This document shows positions 11,033 through 16,991 of a stretch of 48,936 nt of DNA, piece after piece. Under the pieces are notes generated by a model, which did no database searches, had not been told where the DNA came from, and saw only the letters and a list, made by a program, of their open reading frames with translations. Source of the DNA: a virus. The stretch's first letter is position 1. Each line of letters opens with the position of its first letter. Both the position numbers and the translations under genes were made by a program. Location: positions 1 to 48,936 of the IMG/VR virus record IMGVR_UViG_3300045009_001096. One strand, given 5' to 3'.

Positions 11033-12208
11033 ATGAACATGCAGACCTCGTCCGCCGACTTCCGACGCGCGATCACTATCGCTTCCAAGGTGATGGAGCG
11101 GCGCAACGCGATCCCTATCCTAGACACGGTCCGATGCCGCGCAAACGGGTCGTTTGAAGCTGTCGCGACCGACTTGGACATCGAACTGTCGGCGAAGGTG
11201 GCACGCGATCCCGGCGCCGAGTTCGACTTCGCAATGAAGGCGCCGCGCGCGGTGGTTGCAGCCATTGGCGCGGCCGGCGGCAAGACCGTCTCGGTGGCGT
11301 TTGCGGAGGGCAAGGCGTCGATCGCCTCCGACGCTCTGACAATGTCGGTGGGATCGATGCCGAGCGACGATTTCCCGTCGGACTTGGCCCGCCCTCTGGC
11401 GGAAGACTTCGCCGCGACGCTGTCCAAGGAAGCGCTCGCCGCAATCGCGCGCGTCGCGGGGGCAATGTCGAGCGAAGAGACGCGCTACTATCTGAACGGC
11501 GTTCACCTCACGCTTCCCGAGCCGAACCTGCTTCGTGTCGACGCGACGGATGGTCACCGCCTCTATCGCTGCGACGTGCCGTTGCCCGACGCCGCGGGTG
11601 GCTCTGGCCTGAATGCCATCGTCCCCCGCAAGGCGGTTCACCTGCTGCTGGACCTGGCCAAGTCCGCAACGGAGGGCGTCCGCTTGGTGATCGGTCCCGC
11701 GGCAGCCGCCAACCGCGAGGAAGACACGGCGCCGCAGAAGGCGGGAATGCCGCGCCTATCTGTCTCAACGGCAGAGCGGGCTGCCAAGGTCGAGATGAAG
11801 GCGAAGTTGATCGACGGCAACTTTCCCGACGTCGGCCGGGTGATCCCGGCCAGCGGCAACAAGCAGGCTCTCTTTCAGACGCCGGACATGCGCCGCGCCC
11901 TAGCCGCGGTGTCGGGCCACTCAAAGTCAATCCGAGCAGTATCGCTGCGATTGAACGACGGCGGCACCGCGACGATCAAGGCCGCATACGTGGAGATGGA
12001 TCTTGCCGCGGCGGTGACCATCCCCTGCGAGCACCGCTCGCCAGGCTTCGAGATCGGCTTCAACGGCGGCTACCTTCAGTCCGTGCTCGATGCCTCCGGC
12101 GGCGATGAGGTGCTCTTCGATGTTGCGGACGAGTCATCGCCCGCGCTGATCCGCAACCCCTCGGACACGTCGTTCACGGCGGTGCTCATGCCGATGCGGG
12201 TGCGGTGA
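11033..12208 (+). CDS. dnaN: DNA polymerase III beta sliding clamp, phage-encoded
   Basis: 391 aa, full length for the three-domain beta clamp. Recognisable positions: the N-terminal region with RRNAIPILDTV, the middle signature ETRYYLNGVHL and DATDGHRLYRCDVP, LIDGNFPDVGRVIP in domain III, and the C-terminus TAVLMPMRVR, which matches the peptide-binding pocket end MPMRL of bacterial clamps. The ring would encircle DNA and tether polymerases. No phage DNA polymerase is in the window, so it probably serves host Pol III or other clamp users on phage DNA. RBS AGGGAG lies before the ATG at 11033; the frame upstream of that is not used. Confidence 0.93.
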   Translation: MNMQTSSADFRRAITIASKVMERRNAIPILDTVRCRANGSFEAVATDLDIELSAKVARDPGAEFDFAMKAPRAVVAAIGAAGGKTVSVAFAEGKASIASDALTMSVGSMPSDDFPSDLARPLAEDFAATLSKEALAAIARVAGAMSSEETRYYLNGVHLTLPEPNLLRVDATDGHRLYRCDVPLPDAAGGSGLNAIVPRKAVHLLLDLAKSATEGVRLVIGPAAAANREEDTAPQKAGMPRLSVSTAERAAKVEMKAKLIDGNFPDVGRVIPASGNKQALFQTPDMRRALAAVSGHSKSIRAVSLRLNDGGTATIKAAYVEMDLAAAVTIPCEHRSPGFEIGFNGGYLQSVLDASGGDEVLFDVADESSPALIRNPSDTSFTAVLMPMRVR

Positions 12209-12688: not shown

Positions 12689-13011
12689 CCGACCTATTCC
12701 GATATCCGAACGCGCCCGGCGCGCAGAACCGCGACACCTCGCGCGCCGCGGCGGCCAGCATTGCTCCCTCGGCTGCGACGCTGCGCGATCGTGTGCTCGA
12801 CCTCTACCAGCGCTCGCGCGGCCTCACGGCCGATGAGGCGGCTGGCAAGCTCGGTCTGAGCATCTTGTCCATCCGGCCGCGGGTCACCGAGCTGGCACGA
12901 CTCGGCAAACTCCGCGACAGCGGCGAGCGTCGGAAGAATGGCTCCGGCCGCTCGGCGGTCGTGTGGGTGCCGATCTACCCGGCCGCGCTGGCGGGGCAGC
13001 GGGTAGCCTGA
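12685..13011 (+). CDS. Winged-helix DNA-binding protein
   Basis: 108 aa. LTADEAAGKLGLSILSIRPRVTELARLGKLRDSG is a MarR-like winged helix with the strand pair SAVVWVPIY after it. The family occurs beside replication genes in many phages. GTG start overlaps the previous stop (GTGA); the stop overlaps the methyltransferase start by one base. Confidence 0.65.
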   Translation: MTDLFRYPNAPGAQNRDTSRAAAASIAPSAATLRDRVLDLYQRSRGLTADEAAGKLGLSILSIRPRVTELARLGKLRDSGERRKNGSGRSAVVWVPIYPAALAGQRVA

Positions 13012-14399
13012 TGCGCTATCTCGACGTCTGCGCCGGCATCAGCGCCAGCACGGTGGCATGGAAGCCGCTGGGCTGGGAGGCTGCGGCGTACAGCGAAATT
13101 GAGGCCGCTCCGCGCGCCGTCCTCTCGCACCACTATCCCGACACGCCGCTGCACGGCGACTTCACCACCATCAAGGGCGATGAGTATGGGCCAATTGACC
13201 TTCTTGTCGGAGGAACCCCCTGTCAGGACTTCTCCGTCGCCGGCCTCCGAGCGGGACTGGGCGGCGACCGTGGCAACCTTTCGCTCCAGTTTCTCCTGCT
13301 TGCTGCTCGAACACGCGCCCGCTGGGTCGTTTGGGAGAACGTCCCCGGCGTTTTTTCCAGCCTATCCCACGACGCTCCCGATCCATGTCCGCCGCAAATC
13401 GACTTGGACGGCAGTAACGGACCCGAAGACGGGGAAGAGATCGTGGTTGAGGACGAATACGACGCTGACGAAAGCCATGCGCTCGGATGTTTCTTGGCCG
13501 GACTTCAAGAACTCGGGTACGGTGTCGCCTACCGAGTGCTCGACGCTCAATTTGCCGGAGTACCACAGCGCCGCCGTCGCATCTTCGCTGTCGGATATCT
13601 TGGAGACTGGCGCCGTGCCGCTGCGGTACTTCTTGAGCGCCACAGCCTGTCGGGGCATCCTGCGCCGCGCCGAGAAGCGCGGGAAGCAGTTGCCGGGTGC
13701 CTTAGCCCAGGCGCTCACCCTGGCGGCTTCAACGGCCAAGACGCCTACACCCATCAGCTGATCGCTCACGCGCTGCGGGGCGAAGGTTTCGACGCCAGCG
13801 AGGATGGAACGGGGCGCGGCACACCACTCGTGCCGGTGCCTTTCGACACCACACAGATCACGAGCCCGGCGAACCGTAGCAACCCGCGCGCTGGCGACCC
13901 CTGCCATCCGCTGGTTCGCGGTATGCACCCGCCAGCGATCTGCTTCTCGGCTAAAGACCACGGTGCCGACGCTGGTGACATAGCCCCTACGCTTCGGGCA
14001 GGCGGGCACAGCGGCAGTCATGCGAACGCGGGCGTGATGCCGGCGATCGCCTACGGCATAAGTTCCGACGCTGTAGATCGCTCTGGCGAAGGTGATGGCA
14101 GCGCGGCGCAGCGGGCGGGACTTGGCATCGCGGTCGACGTGCAGCCCACCTTGCGCTGTCGTGGCGCCGACAGCGTCGGCACGGCTTCAGCGGTCCGCCG
14201 CCTGACCCCGCGCGAGTGCGAACGCCTCCAGGGCTTCCCTGACGACTACACCCTCGTCCCCCATCGCGGAAAGCCGATGGCCGATGGCCCCCGCTACAAA
14301 GCGCTGGGGAACTCGATGGCGGTTCCCGTCATGGCCTGGATTGGTCAGCGGATCGCGGCGGTGGAGGCTCTAACGAGCGCGGAGGCGCGCGCAGCGTGA
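13011..14399 (+). CDS. C5 cytosine DNA methyltransferase
   Basis: 462 aa. Motif I DVCAGISAS, motif IV GGTPCQDFSVAG with catalytic Cys71, motif VI WENVPG, motif VIII QRRRRIFAVG, motif IX region RRLTPRECERLQGFPDD and motif X KALGNSMAVPVM are all present, so the enzyme looks active. The long section between VIII and IX (about 200-380), including GFDASEDGTGRGTPLV, is the target recognition region typical of phage Dcm-type enzymes. It would transfer methyl from S-adenosylmethionine to C5 of cytosine. No cognate restriction gene is adjacent, so it is probably an orphan protecting phage DNA or influencing lysogen gene expression. Confidence 0.93.
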   Translation: MRYLDVCAGISASTVAWKPLGWEAAAYSEIEAAPRAVLSHHYPDTPLHGDFTTIKGDEYGPIDLLVGGTPCQDFSVAGLRAGLGGDRGNLSLQFLLLAARTRARWVVWENVPGVFSSLSHDAPDPCPPQIDLDGSNGPEDGEEIVVEDEYDADESHALGCFLAGLQELGYGVAYRVLDAQFAGVPQRRRRIFAVGYLGDWRRAAAVLLERHSLSGHPAPRREAREAVAGCLSPGAHPGGFNGQDAYTHQLIAHALRGEGFDASEDGTGRGTPLVPVPFDTTQITSPANRSNPRAGDPCHPLVRGMHPPAICFSAKDHGADAGDIAPTLRAGGHSGSHANAGVMPAIAYGISSDAVDRSGEGDGSAAQRAGLGIAVDVQPTLRCRGADSVGTASAVRRLTPRECERLQGFPDDYTLVPHRGKPMADGPRYKALGNSMAVPVMAWIGQRIAAVEALTSAEARAA

Positions 14400-14728
14400 G
14401 CCGGTCCGAACCTCAGCCCGTGAAACGTCCAACTGGCGTCGCTTGGCGCCGCAAGATGCGTGCGGCCCTTATTGATCGTGATGGACCGCGGTGCCGCTCT
14501 TGCGGACGGGAGGAGCGGCTTGTCTGGTGTAATCGAGGCTACGGCGGCGACGTCTACTCCGGCCTGTACACGAAGGTTGATCGCGCGCCGGATCTGGCGG
14601 TCGATCATCGCACCGCCCTTGCGGATGGCGGGGGGAACGATCTCTCCAACCTCCAGCTGCTTTGTCCTGTCTGCCATCTCGCAAAGACAGTCGCGGAGAA
14701 GCGTGCGCGTCGGGCGGCCAAGGCATGA
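14396..14728 (+). CDS. HNH endonuclease
   Basis: 110 aa with GTG start (GTGA overlap). CRSCG and CPVCH make the zinc pair; VDHRTALADGG, the Asn of GNDLSNLQ and CPVCHLAK complete the HNH catalytic fold. It lies between the methyltransferase and the initiator gene. A nicking role in replication or restriction is inferred. Confidence 0.8.
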   Translation: MSRSEPQPVKRPTGVAWRRKMRAALIDRDGPRCRSCGREERLVWCNRGYGGDVYSGLYTKVDRAPDLAVDHRTALADGGGNDLSNLQLLCPVCHLAKTVAEKRARRAAKA

Positions 14729-15477
14729 GCTTCGCCGCCCTCGCCATCATATCAAAGATGAAACTCGGCTCGGCTGCCGAGAAGCTGATCGCGCTCGCAT
14801 ATGCTGACCGGCACAACGAGGAAACGGGTTGCGCCTATCCCTCGATCGCCGCGCTGTGCGAGTTCAGCTCGCTGAACCGCAAGACGGTGGTCGCCGCGGT
14901 AGGCCGGCTTGAGGCCGCGGGGCTCTTGAGCGACACCGGCGATCGCCGCGGCGAGACGAAGCAGATCAAGGTCTACCGCCTCAACATAGACAGTGCCGAA
15001 AACGGAACCGTTCCGAAATCGGAACCATCCCAAATTCGGAACAGTACCGGAAAGCGCCCGAAACAGTCCCAAAAACGGGACACGGAACCAGTTAGAACCA
15101 ATCCTTCTCCGGATGCTTCGCATCCTCCGAAGGGCGCGCGCAGCGGTGCGTCGCAGATCAAGCCTCATCGAATGCCAGCGGACTGGAAGCACGAGCGCTT
15201 CGCAGACGGGACCGTTGCTCGCGAGATCGCCGACCGCCGCGGCAAGGAGTGGTCGCGCGCAGCACTGGAGAGCTTCCGGAATTGGGCTGCCAATGCCGAT
15301 GACCGGGTCGGCCGAAAGCGCGACTGGCAGCGAGCATGGGCAAACTGGGTGATCGAGCAGGACAATCGAGATGGACGACGACCGGGAAATCAGCGTGTGG
15401 GAGGAAACGACGGGCAGCCGCGCTCTGGCCACGGCCGCACCGTCGACGCCGCCCTCGCTTTCGTCGCGGATGGCTGA
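14725..15477 (+). CDS. Lambda O-like replication initiator
   Basis: 250 aa from the ATG at 14725 (ATGA overlap). The N-terminus (KLGSAAEKLIALAYAD, GCAYPSIAALCEF, NRKTVVAAVGRLEAAGLL) is the winged-helix (HTH_36) of phage replisome organisers. The C-terminal part has the tryptophan pattern PADWKHERFADG, EWSRAALESFRNW and DWQRAWANWV common to O-type proteins, where it contacts helicase or loader. The middle (about 88-130) is a charged, disordered linker whose DNA carries tandem 17-bp repeats, the in-gene origin arrangement of lambda ori. Confidence 0.75.
   Translation: MSFAALAIISKMKLGSAAEKLIALAYADRHNEETGCAYPSIAALCEFSSLNRKTVVAAVGRLEAAGLLSDTGDRRGETKQIKVYRLNIDSAENGTVPKSEPSQIRNSTGKRPKQSQKRDTEPVRTNPSPDASHPPKGARSGASQIKPHRMPADWKHERFADGTVAREIADRRGKEWSRAALESFRNWAANADDRVGRKRDWQRAWANWVIEQDNRDGRRPGNQRVGGNDGQPRSGHGRTVDAALAFVADG
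15003..15099. other. Candidate replication origin: tandem 17-bp iterons in initiator gene
   Basis: CGGAAC boxes start at 15003, 15020 and 15037, exactly 17 bp apart: units 15003-15019 CGGAACCGTTCCGAAAT, 15020-15036 CGGAACCATCCCAAATT, 15037-15053 CGGAACAGTACCGGAAA. A fourth unit CGAAACAGTCCCAAAAA is at 15059-15075 and partial copies follow at 15076 and 15083. A degenerate unit precedes at 14986-15002. The inverted repeat GTCCC-AAAAAC-GGGAC lies at 15066-15081. Composition is more A-rich than the surroundings, which suits an unwinding element. Confidence 0.65.
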
Positions 15478-16000: not shown

Positions 16001-16368
16001 GCCGCGACACGCCTTGGTCGCCGCTTGTCACGCAGGCGGACGTGGACCTGTTCTTCAATGAGAACCCCGGCGGCTGCCCTCATTGCGCGGCGCCGCTCGG
16101 TGACGAGCACAGGTCCGCGGCCGGGGTGGAATGCTGGATCCTACGCAATCGCCGCAACAGGCGGCACGGCTGGATCGCATACATCCACGTGCGGGCCAAG
16201 GCGCCGGATACGCCGGCTGAGATCGCCACGCGGATGCTCGCCTTGCGCGACGAGCTCATCCGACAGCTTCAAGACCACCTCGATTATGATCGTGCTGGGC
16301 TGATCGAGTGGATCCGACATCAAGAAGCTGAGCGTGCTGCGATCGACGCGCACCGGCGCGCGGCGTGA
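15997..16368 (+). CDS. Small protein with N-terminal zinc-ribbon half
   Basis: 123 aa, GTG start overlapping the previous stop. CPHCAAPLGDEH plus a later ECWILRNRRNRRHGW give a possible zinc site (C-x2-C, H, C). The C-terminal half is a long charged helix (LALRDELIRQLQDHL to EAERAAIDAHRRAA). Not recognised; it couples to the NusG-like gene through GTGA. Confidence 0.55.
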   Translation: MSRDTPWSPLVTQADVDLFFNENPGGCPHCAAPLGDEHRSAAGVECWILRNRRNRRHGWIAYIHVRAKAPDTPAEIATRMLALRDELIRQLQDHLDYDRAGLIEWIRHQEAERAAIDAHRRAA

Positions 16369-16991
16369 CGATGTTCCACGATTGTTCTAAAGGGTTCTGG
16401 GCTGGAGTGACGAGAATGGGGCGGGTGAGCGAGACGGACGGCTGGGTGATCCTGACCACAGCGGGGATGCGAACGCTCCCGCTGATGCGCGCGTTGCGCG
16501 CGGCCGGCATGGAGGCGTGGACGCCCATGCGCACCGAGCGCCGTGCGGGCCGCGGGAAGAAGCGTCGTGAGACGGTGACCTTTGATGTGGCCGTGCTGCC
16601 CTCAATCGTGTTTACGCGCGCCATCCACGAGGCCGAGTTGCGCGCCGCACTGCGCCAGCCCGCCTCGCCCTATCCCGCCTTCCAGTTCTTTCGCGACCAT
16701 GACCGCCGCGTGCCGGTGATCGCCGATGCCAGCCTTGCCGCCTTGCGCGCGGTCGAGGAGCGCTTCCGTCGATCGGCGATCAAGAGCACACGCCAGCGGG
16801 TCGAACCCGGCACTCGCATCAGCATCCAGAAGGGGGCGTTCGCAGGGATGACAGGAATTGTCACCCACGGCTCAGGCAAGGAAGCATTCGTGGACCTCGG
16901 CTTCGGCAAGCCCGTGTCGATTGCCTCTTACCTAATTGGAACGGACGTGGTACAGACTGGTGAACAGCCCGTCATGGGCATCGCCGCATGA
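16365..16991 (+). CDS. NusG/RfaH-type transcription elongation factor
   Basis: 208 aa from the GTG at 16365 (190 aa if the ATG at 16416 is used). An N-terminal NGN-like domain (GWVILTTAGMRTLPLMRALRAAGMEAWTP to VAVLPSIVFT) is followed after a linker by a KOW motif at about 146-172 (VEPGTRISIQKGAFAGMTGI). Members bind RNA polymerase and modify pausing or termination; specialised paralogues such as RfaH act on selected operons. It is the last early gene before the packaging cluster, where a late-gene antiterminator (lambda Q equivalent) would be expected. Sequence identity with host NusG looks low by eye: the basic loop RAGRGKKRRE is unusual. Confidence 0.75.
   Translation: MTMFHDCSKGFWAGVTRMGRVSETDGWVILTTAGMRTLPLMRALRAAGMEAWTPMRTERRAGRGKKRRETVTFDVAVLPSIVFTRAIHEAELRAALRQPASPYPAFQFFRDHDRRVPVIADASLAALRAVEERFRRSAIKSTRQRVEPGTRISIQKGAFAGMTGIVTHGSGKEAFVDLGFGKPVSIASYLIGTDVVQTGEQPVMGIAA

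Follow-up and report, generated by a model that had tools for sequence, protein, structure and literature searches.

Replication origins that lie inside the gene for their own initiator protein are of a known kind. In phage lambda, the O protein binds iterons located within gene O, each of them an inverted repeat flanking an A-tract (PMC7466680). The Rep protein of plasmid pSK41, of the RepA_N type, has a winged-helix N terminus and a separate C-terminal domain, and its origin repeats lie in the part of the gene that codes for a dispensable linker (PMC5703833). A chimeric Rep of plasmid pPR9, in which an HTH_36 domain and the origin region were exchanged together and the C terminus was kept, gave a working mini-replicon (PMC5703833). 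Among phages, HTH_36 genes are described in the replication region of Eru-type lambdoid phages, in a paper whose available portion contains no mention of iterons that we could find (PMC8951638), and the available portion of another notes repeats within the O-like gene of Pseudomonas phage MD8, without giving the repeat sequence (PMC8508860). In those portions neither account describes a conserved iteron, its co-variation with the initiator or a second element. Within the literature searched, which included few subscription papers, no description was found of the iteron class, the winged-helix co-variation or the adjacent phased repeats reported here, and neither the iteron core used as text nor a targeted search of that literature gave a match. 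Lambda aside, none of the annotated records that we examined carries an origin annotation.

The DNA analyzed here, called the window throughout, comprises the 48,936 bases of an IMG/VR virus record. An initial annotation had pointed to tandem repeats inside an initiator gene as a candidate origin resembling lambda ori. In our reading, to which we assign a probability of roughly 0.87, the winged-helix initiator would bind these repeats as an array of sites in its own gene; together with adjacent repeats of 11 to 12 bp, they form an intragenic replication origin that would work like lambda O/ori-lambda. The assignment of the gene to an O-like PHROG family, the disordered linker and the comparison of linkers among relatives all support this candidate. 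Coordinates of the features are given in Table 1.

Table 1. Features of the proposed origin and its surroundings (window positions).
Feature	Position	Strand	Remarks
DNA polymerase III beta clamp homologue	11036-12208		all three Pfam domains; PHROG 947; ~54% identity to the copy in L001
C5 cytosine DNA methyltransferase	12963-14399
Small HNH endonuclease	14396-14728		after the methyltransferase, directly before the initiator gene
Initiator gene, 250 aa	14725-15477	+	winged helix 1-90, disordered linker ~91-145, folded C-terminal domain
Low-stability stretch, candidate unwinding region	14986-15110	.	within the least stable ~0.5% of windows in the record (nearest-neighbour energies)
Iteron 1, GTGCCGAAAACGGAAC	14993-15008	+	matrix score 22.0, second highest on the + strand of the window
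Iteron 2, GTTCCGAAATCGGAAC	15010-15025	+	matrix score 21.4; 17 bp after iteron 1
Iteron 3, ATCCCAAATTCGGAAC	15027-15042	+	matrix score 16.6; 17 bp after iteron 2
Degenerate iteron slot, GTACCGGAAAGCGCCC	15044-15059	+	17 bp after iteron 3, 22 bp before iteron 4
Iteron 4, GTCCCAAAAACGGGAC	15066-15081	+	identical to the consensus and to the hairpin; matrix score 28.7, best in the window
Second element, two GGAACC-type copies (GGAACCAGTTAGAACC)	15084-15099	+	10-bp spacing; family enrichment, fixed offset
Initiator C-terminal domain, residues ~146-218	15160-15378	+	AlphaFold2 pLDDT mostly >90
Downstream gene, 209 aa	15371-16000	+	overlaps the initiator gene; conserved in place; candidate helicase loader by position only
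NusG-like protein	16365-16991		PHROG transcription antiterminator match; two genes past the initiator

The initiator matches HTH_36 (PF13730) with an E value of 1.2e-08 and 35 bits, against a curated cutoff of 25, and phrog_1032 (replication initiation protein) over residues 1 to 220 with an E value of 6.3e-23. Further PHROG matches are 6643 (replication initiation protein) and 391 (O-like), and some of its PHROG families are common to lambda O. Its Pfam matches at E 0.1 include neither RepA_N (PF06970) nor Phage_rep_O (PF04492), which lambda O itself matches at 5.7e-36. The initial description of the protein as O-like agrees with its PHROG assignment, but not with its N-terminal domain, which is HTH_36 and not the Phage_rep_O of lambda. 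Because direct profile comparison with a single lambda O sequence gave a weak match, homology of its N-terminal domain to that of lambda O rests on the shared PHROGs only. A sequence-profile search of the PDB found nothing convincing, and fold searches returned generic winged helices, including MarR-type transcription regulators; 4pt7_B (Z 7.7) and 4pql_B (Z 8.0) scored level with unrelated winged helices, and the initiator 4pt7 was not set apart. AlphaFold2 predicts the winged helix (residues 1 to 90) confidently and gives the linker, which is rich in P, K, Q, and T, a pLDDT of 54 to 60 over residues 91 to 140. Residues 90 to 119 are encoded by the iterons, and the array falls in a predicted disordered linker, as had been annotated.

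The tandem repeat in 14986-15099 is real. Lag 17 is the best self-match of this stretch and has the top score for lags of 10 to 40 in the whole window, and Tandem Repeats Finder reports a period of 17 at 14999-15042. None of 5,000 dinucleotide shuffles and none of 5,000 resamplings with the codon usage of the virus reached the lag-17 score; under a much stricter null, in which synonymous codons were permuted inside the linker, 115 of 5,000 did. The hexamer CGGAAC is exact at 15003, 15020, and 15037, with the 17-bp spacing first noted, and a further copy occurs at 15083. The copy annotated at 15059 after a 5-bp insertion does lie 22 bp (17 + 5) past 15037, but it reads CGAAAC, with one mismatch.

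What had to be revised is the repeat unit. Across relatives, the conserved unit is a 16-bp dyad, GTNCC-nAAAnC-GGnAC, spaced at 17, 18, 22, 24, or 25 bp, and CGGAAC, which is the 3' half of the dyad plus one spacer base, is ruled out as the unit. In the window the unit is better read as GTCCC-AAAAAC-GGGAC, present in four copies and one degenerate copy. It follows from the dyad being the unit across relatives that the GTCCC/GGGAC hairpin of the initial annotation, found again at 15066, is itself the most canonical copy; it also lies inside a 25-bp stretch that is invariant among eight relatives. The iterons are spaced at 17, 17, and 39 bp, where 39 is 17 + 22 around the degenerate copy, and a spacing of 17, 17, and 22 bp with the degenerate slot filled is seen in two relatives (L106 and L055).

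An iteron matrix was built from 200 sites in 53 non-redundant genes, with the consensus GTCCCAAAAACGGGAC. These sites came from loci fetched by the 16-mer, which makes the consensus circular in part; where the sites fall in the window is not affected by this. The top four plus-strand sites in the 48.9 kb all fall in the linker, and the best site outside it scores 5.4; the matrix scan found no further dyad copies near a promoter, before the initiator gene, or elsewhere in the window. This distribution bears on the possibility that the winged-helix protein binds its own gene as an operator and shuts off transcription of the early operon, with no replication firing there. Dyad sites suit a dimeric regulator, and the fold resembles that of MarR-type regulators. 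However, no copy precedes the initiator gene, the array is mid-gene in every relative examined, the PHROG families are named as initiation proteins, and the arrangement is that of lambda and of the pSK41-type origins inside rep genes. We consider an operator in place of an origin improbable, although autoregulation in addition to origin function may occur.

The iteron is conserved as DNA. IMG/VR was scanned with the 16-mer by DNA alone, and for 103 of the 120 matching loci listed (the total is at least 120), the match is on the coding strand of a homologous winged-helix gene and falls in its linker. The remaining 17 are in part cut-off contigs with similar linker frames and in part apparently chance matches, and none of the 42 loci matched by a scrambled 16-mer of the same composition lies in such a gene. 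At 75% winged-helix identity the collection, which is redundant, comes down from 110 genes to 53. These data also speak to whether the repeats could simply be a peptide repeat or low-complexity linker, selected for the protein or made by slippage. The linker is predicted to be disordered, with the composition noted above, and some relatives do have in-frame 18-bp units. Against this, the 17-bp period is not divisible by three, and the iterons use more than one reading frame in 47 of the 52 genes with two or more of them. Among the eight closest relatives, all 11 invariant linker residues tested have a single codon, as do only 3 of 48 invariant winged-helix residues, and genes that have diverged widely still share the DNA unit. 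On the reading frames and the codon fixation we reject a peptide repeat, and we give this explanation as a whole almost no credence.

Next to the iterons lies a second element. Of 54 genes, 37 have a GAAYC-type motif that begins exactly 3 bp past the last iteron, usually as part of 2 to 4 copies that are mostly 11 to 12 bp apart, with a consensus of about GGAACC(T/A)nnAAR. AACC pairs spaced at 11 or 12 bp are present in 23 genes out of 50, compared with a mean of 5.7 and a maximum of 12 in codon resampling, and the copies fall in more than one codon phase in 23 of the 35 genes having two or more. In the window, no lambda-like A-tract was found beside the iterons; the GGAACC repeat stands in that place. 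The G+C content of 14986-15099 is 51.8%, versus mostly 60 to 70% in the 1-kb windows of the record. The second element, or the low-stability stretch around it, may be the unwinding element.

Comparison of initiators from related loci, denoted here by L numbers, had been suggested as a check on the candidate origin and gave a positive result: the linker repeats co-vary with the winged helix. In L006, L008, L009, and L010, the winged helix and iteron are as in the window, and the C termini are unrelated. Conversely, L004, L005, L007, and L011 have C termini close to that of the window, together with different winged helices, and lack the GTCCC iteron. Their linkers carry other repeats: GACCGGTCAA in L011, with a best lag of 17, and CACCCCCGCAG in both L005 and L007, each beyond 1,000 codon resamplings, and in L004 a repeat whose score was reached in 4 of 1,000 resamplings. 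In these comparisons, the iteron type goes with the winged helix and not with the C terminus, and the winged helix and iterons move as a block, the C-terminal domain being exchanged separately. It could be argued that the repeats are merely sites of module exchange, short homologies for recombination between winged helix and C terminus with no role in replication, as modules do swap across the linker. But the iteron moves together with its winged helix, and, since the C termini of L004, L005, L007, and L011 match that of the window and the repeats differ, those swaps took place without iteron homology. Such an explanation seems to us very improbable.

Named phages picked by protein similarity alone mostly have lineage-specific repeats in the linker (Bcep176, EPP-1, EBPR podovirus 1, EC.W1-9, Ab105-2phi, Vibrio H20, Pam5, PMBT6, and others); the repeats are weaker in LZ35 and AP22, and the linker of BS46 has none. 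In Bifidobacterium phage PMBT6 (L188) and Pam5 (L187), they are long and near-palindromic (GGGGTGACACCCATGTCACCCC and GGGGTCAGAATGTGACCCCC), with best lags of 45 and 43/23 bp, respectively, and seem to represent additional iteron classes, carried by phages from other phyla. The initiator of L026, on the reverse strand, has a linker insert of ~80 residues between winged helix and iterons; by eye, this insert (YTYRLTDDVTGEFYIGVRS) resembles a GIY-YIG-type nuclease, and it is possibly a homing insertion at an origin.

The gene downstream of the initiator matches no Pfam family, that of lambda P included, and its predicted structure has no match in the PDB. Its homologues directly follow the initiator in L001, L004, L005, L007, L011, and others, among them the relatives whose winged helix has been swapped. 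The sign of the GC skew changes near 14 to 14.5 kb, which fits an origin but only weakly, because the record has its cumulative minimum in another place. Scanning the genome with the family alignment yielded a single match, short and weak.

Set beside lambda (NC_001416), the window has its proposed origin in the same part of the initiator gene, directly behind the winged-helix half. It also shares tandem inverted-repeat iterons with CCC and GGG arms around an A-tract (lambda ATCCCTCAAAACGAGGGA, window GTCCCAAAAACGGGAC), a replication gene (in the window, a candidate) directly downstream, and some PHROG families. The differences lie in the N-terminal domain, Phage_rep_O in lambda and HTH_36 here; in the iteron, whose 16-bp unit has a center three bases shorter than that of lambda and a spacing of 17 bp, compared with 20 to 24 bp; in the phased GGAACC repeat that follows the iterons where lambda has an A-rich tract; and in the downstream gene, which shows no match to the lambda P family. 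RepA_N initiators such as pSK41 Rep have the same layout of winged-helix N terminus, repeats in the linker-coding part of the gene, and separate C-terminal domain, but the N terminus of the window protein matches HTH_36, and its named relatives are mainly from Gram-negative hosts. The pPR9 initiator shares HTH_36 with the window and comes from a staphylococcal plasmid; the likeness lies in this domain and in its exchange together with the origin region.

A related initiator with iteron-like linker repeats is found on an 8,461-bp circular E. coli plasmid (NZ_CP148379.1; L204), where it and a lambda-P-family gene are the only recognizable replication genes. L204 (1-8461) and L203 (K. pneumoniae; NZ_CP130688.1) are small plasmids in which a prophage block for immunity and replication (repressor, Cro/YdaS, YdaT, HTH_36-DnaT initiator, and lambda P homologue) is joined by a few other genes, and are apparently natural counterparts of lambda-dv plasmids.

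Taken together, these observations suggest a three-step mechanism for the proposed origin. The winged helix would bind the GTCCC-AAAAAC-GGGAC dyads at 14993-15081; the loaded array would then strain and open neighboring DNA, most likely at ~15084-15110; and the C-terminal domain and the downstream gene product would bring the host helicase. The locus is very probably a new member of the HTH_36-class, lambda-like intragenic origins. Within this known kind of origin, we conclude that the GTCCC iterons would form a separate, widespread variant, whose two-part arrangement appears in dozens of distantly related phage genes. A broader proposal, which we offer tentatively and with less than even confidence, is that HTH_36 phage initiators make up a large class of intragenic origins of their own, always laid out in two parts. 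The winged helix would set the iteron type, and the phased array of GGAACC 11- to 12-mers would signal unwinding or strand-specific loading and be read in single-stranded form, whether by the initiator, by its C-terminal domain, or by the loader.

HTH_36 winged-helix replication genes are widespread among phages, and the dyad with its adjoining array provides a sequence rule for locating their origins, which may also define replication compatibility groups. As the winged helix and iterons move as a block and the C terminus separately, the family lends itself naturally to working out how residues read bases. The second element, for its part, provides a testable idea of where origins of the HTH_36 class may open.
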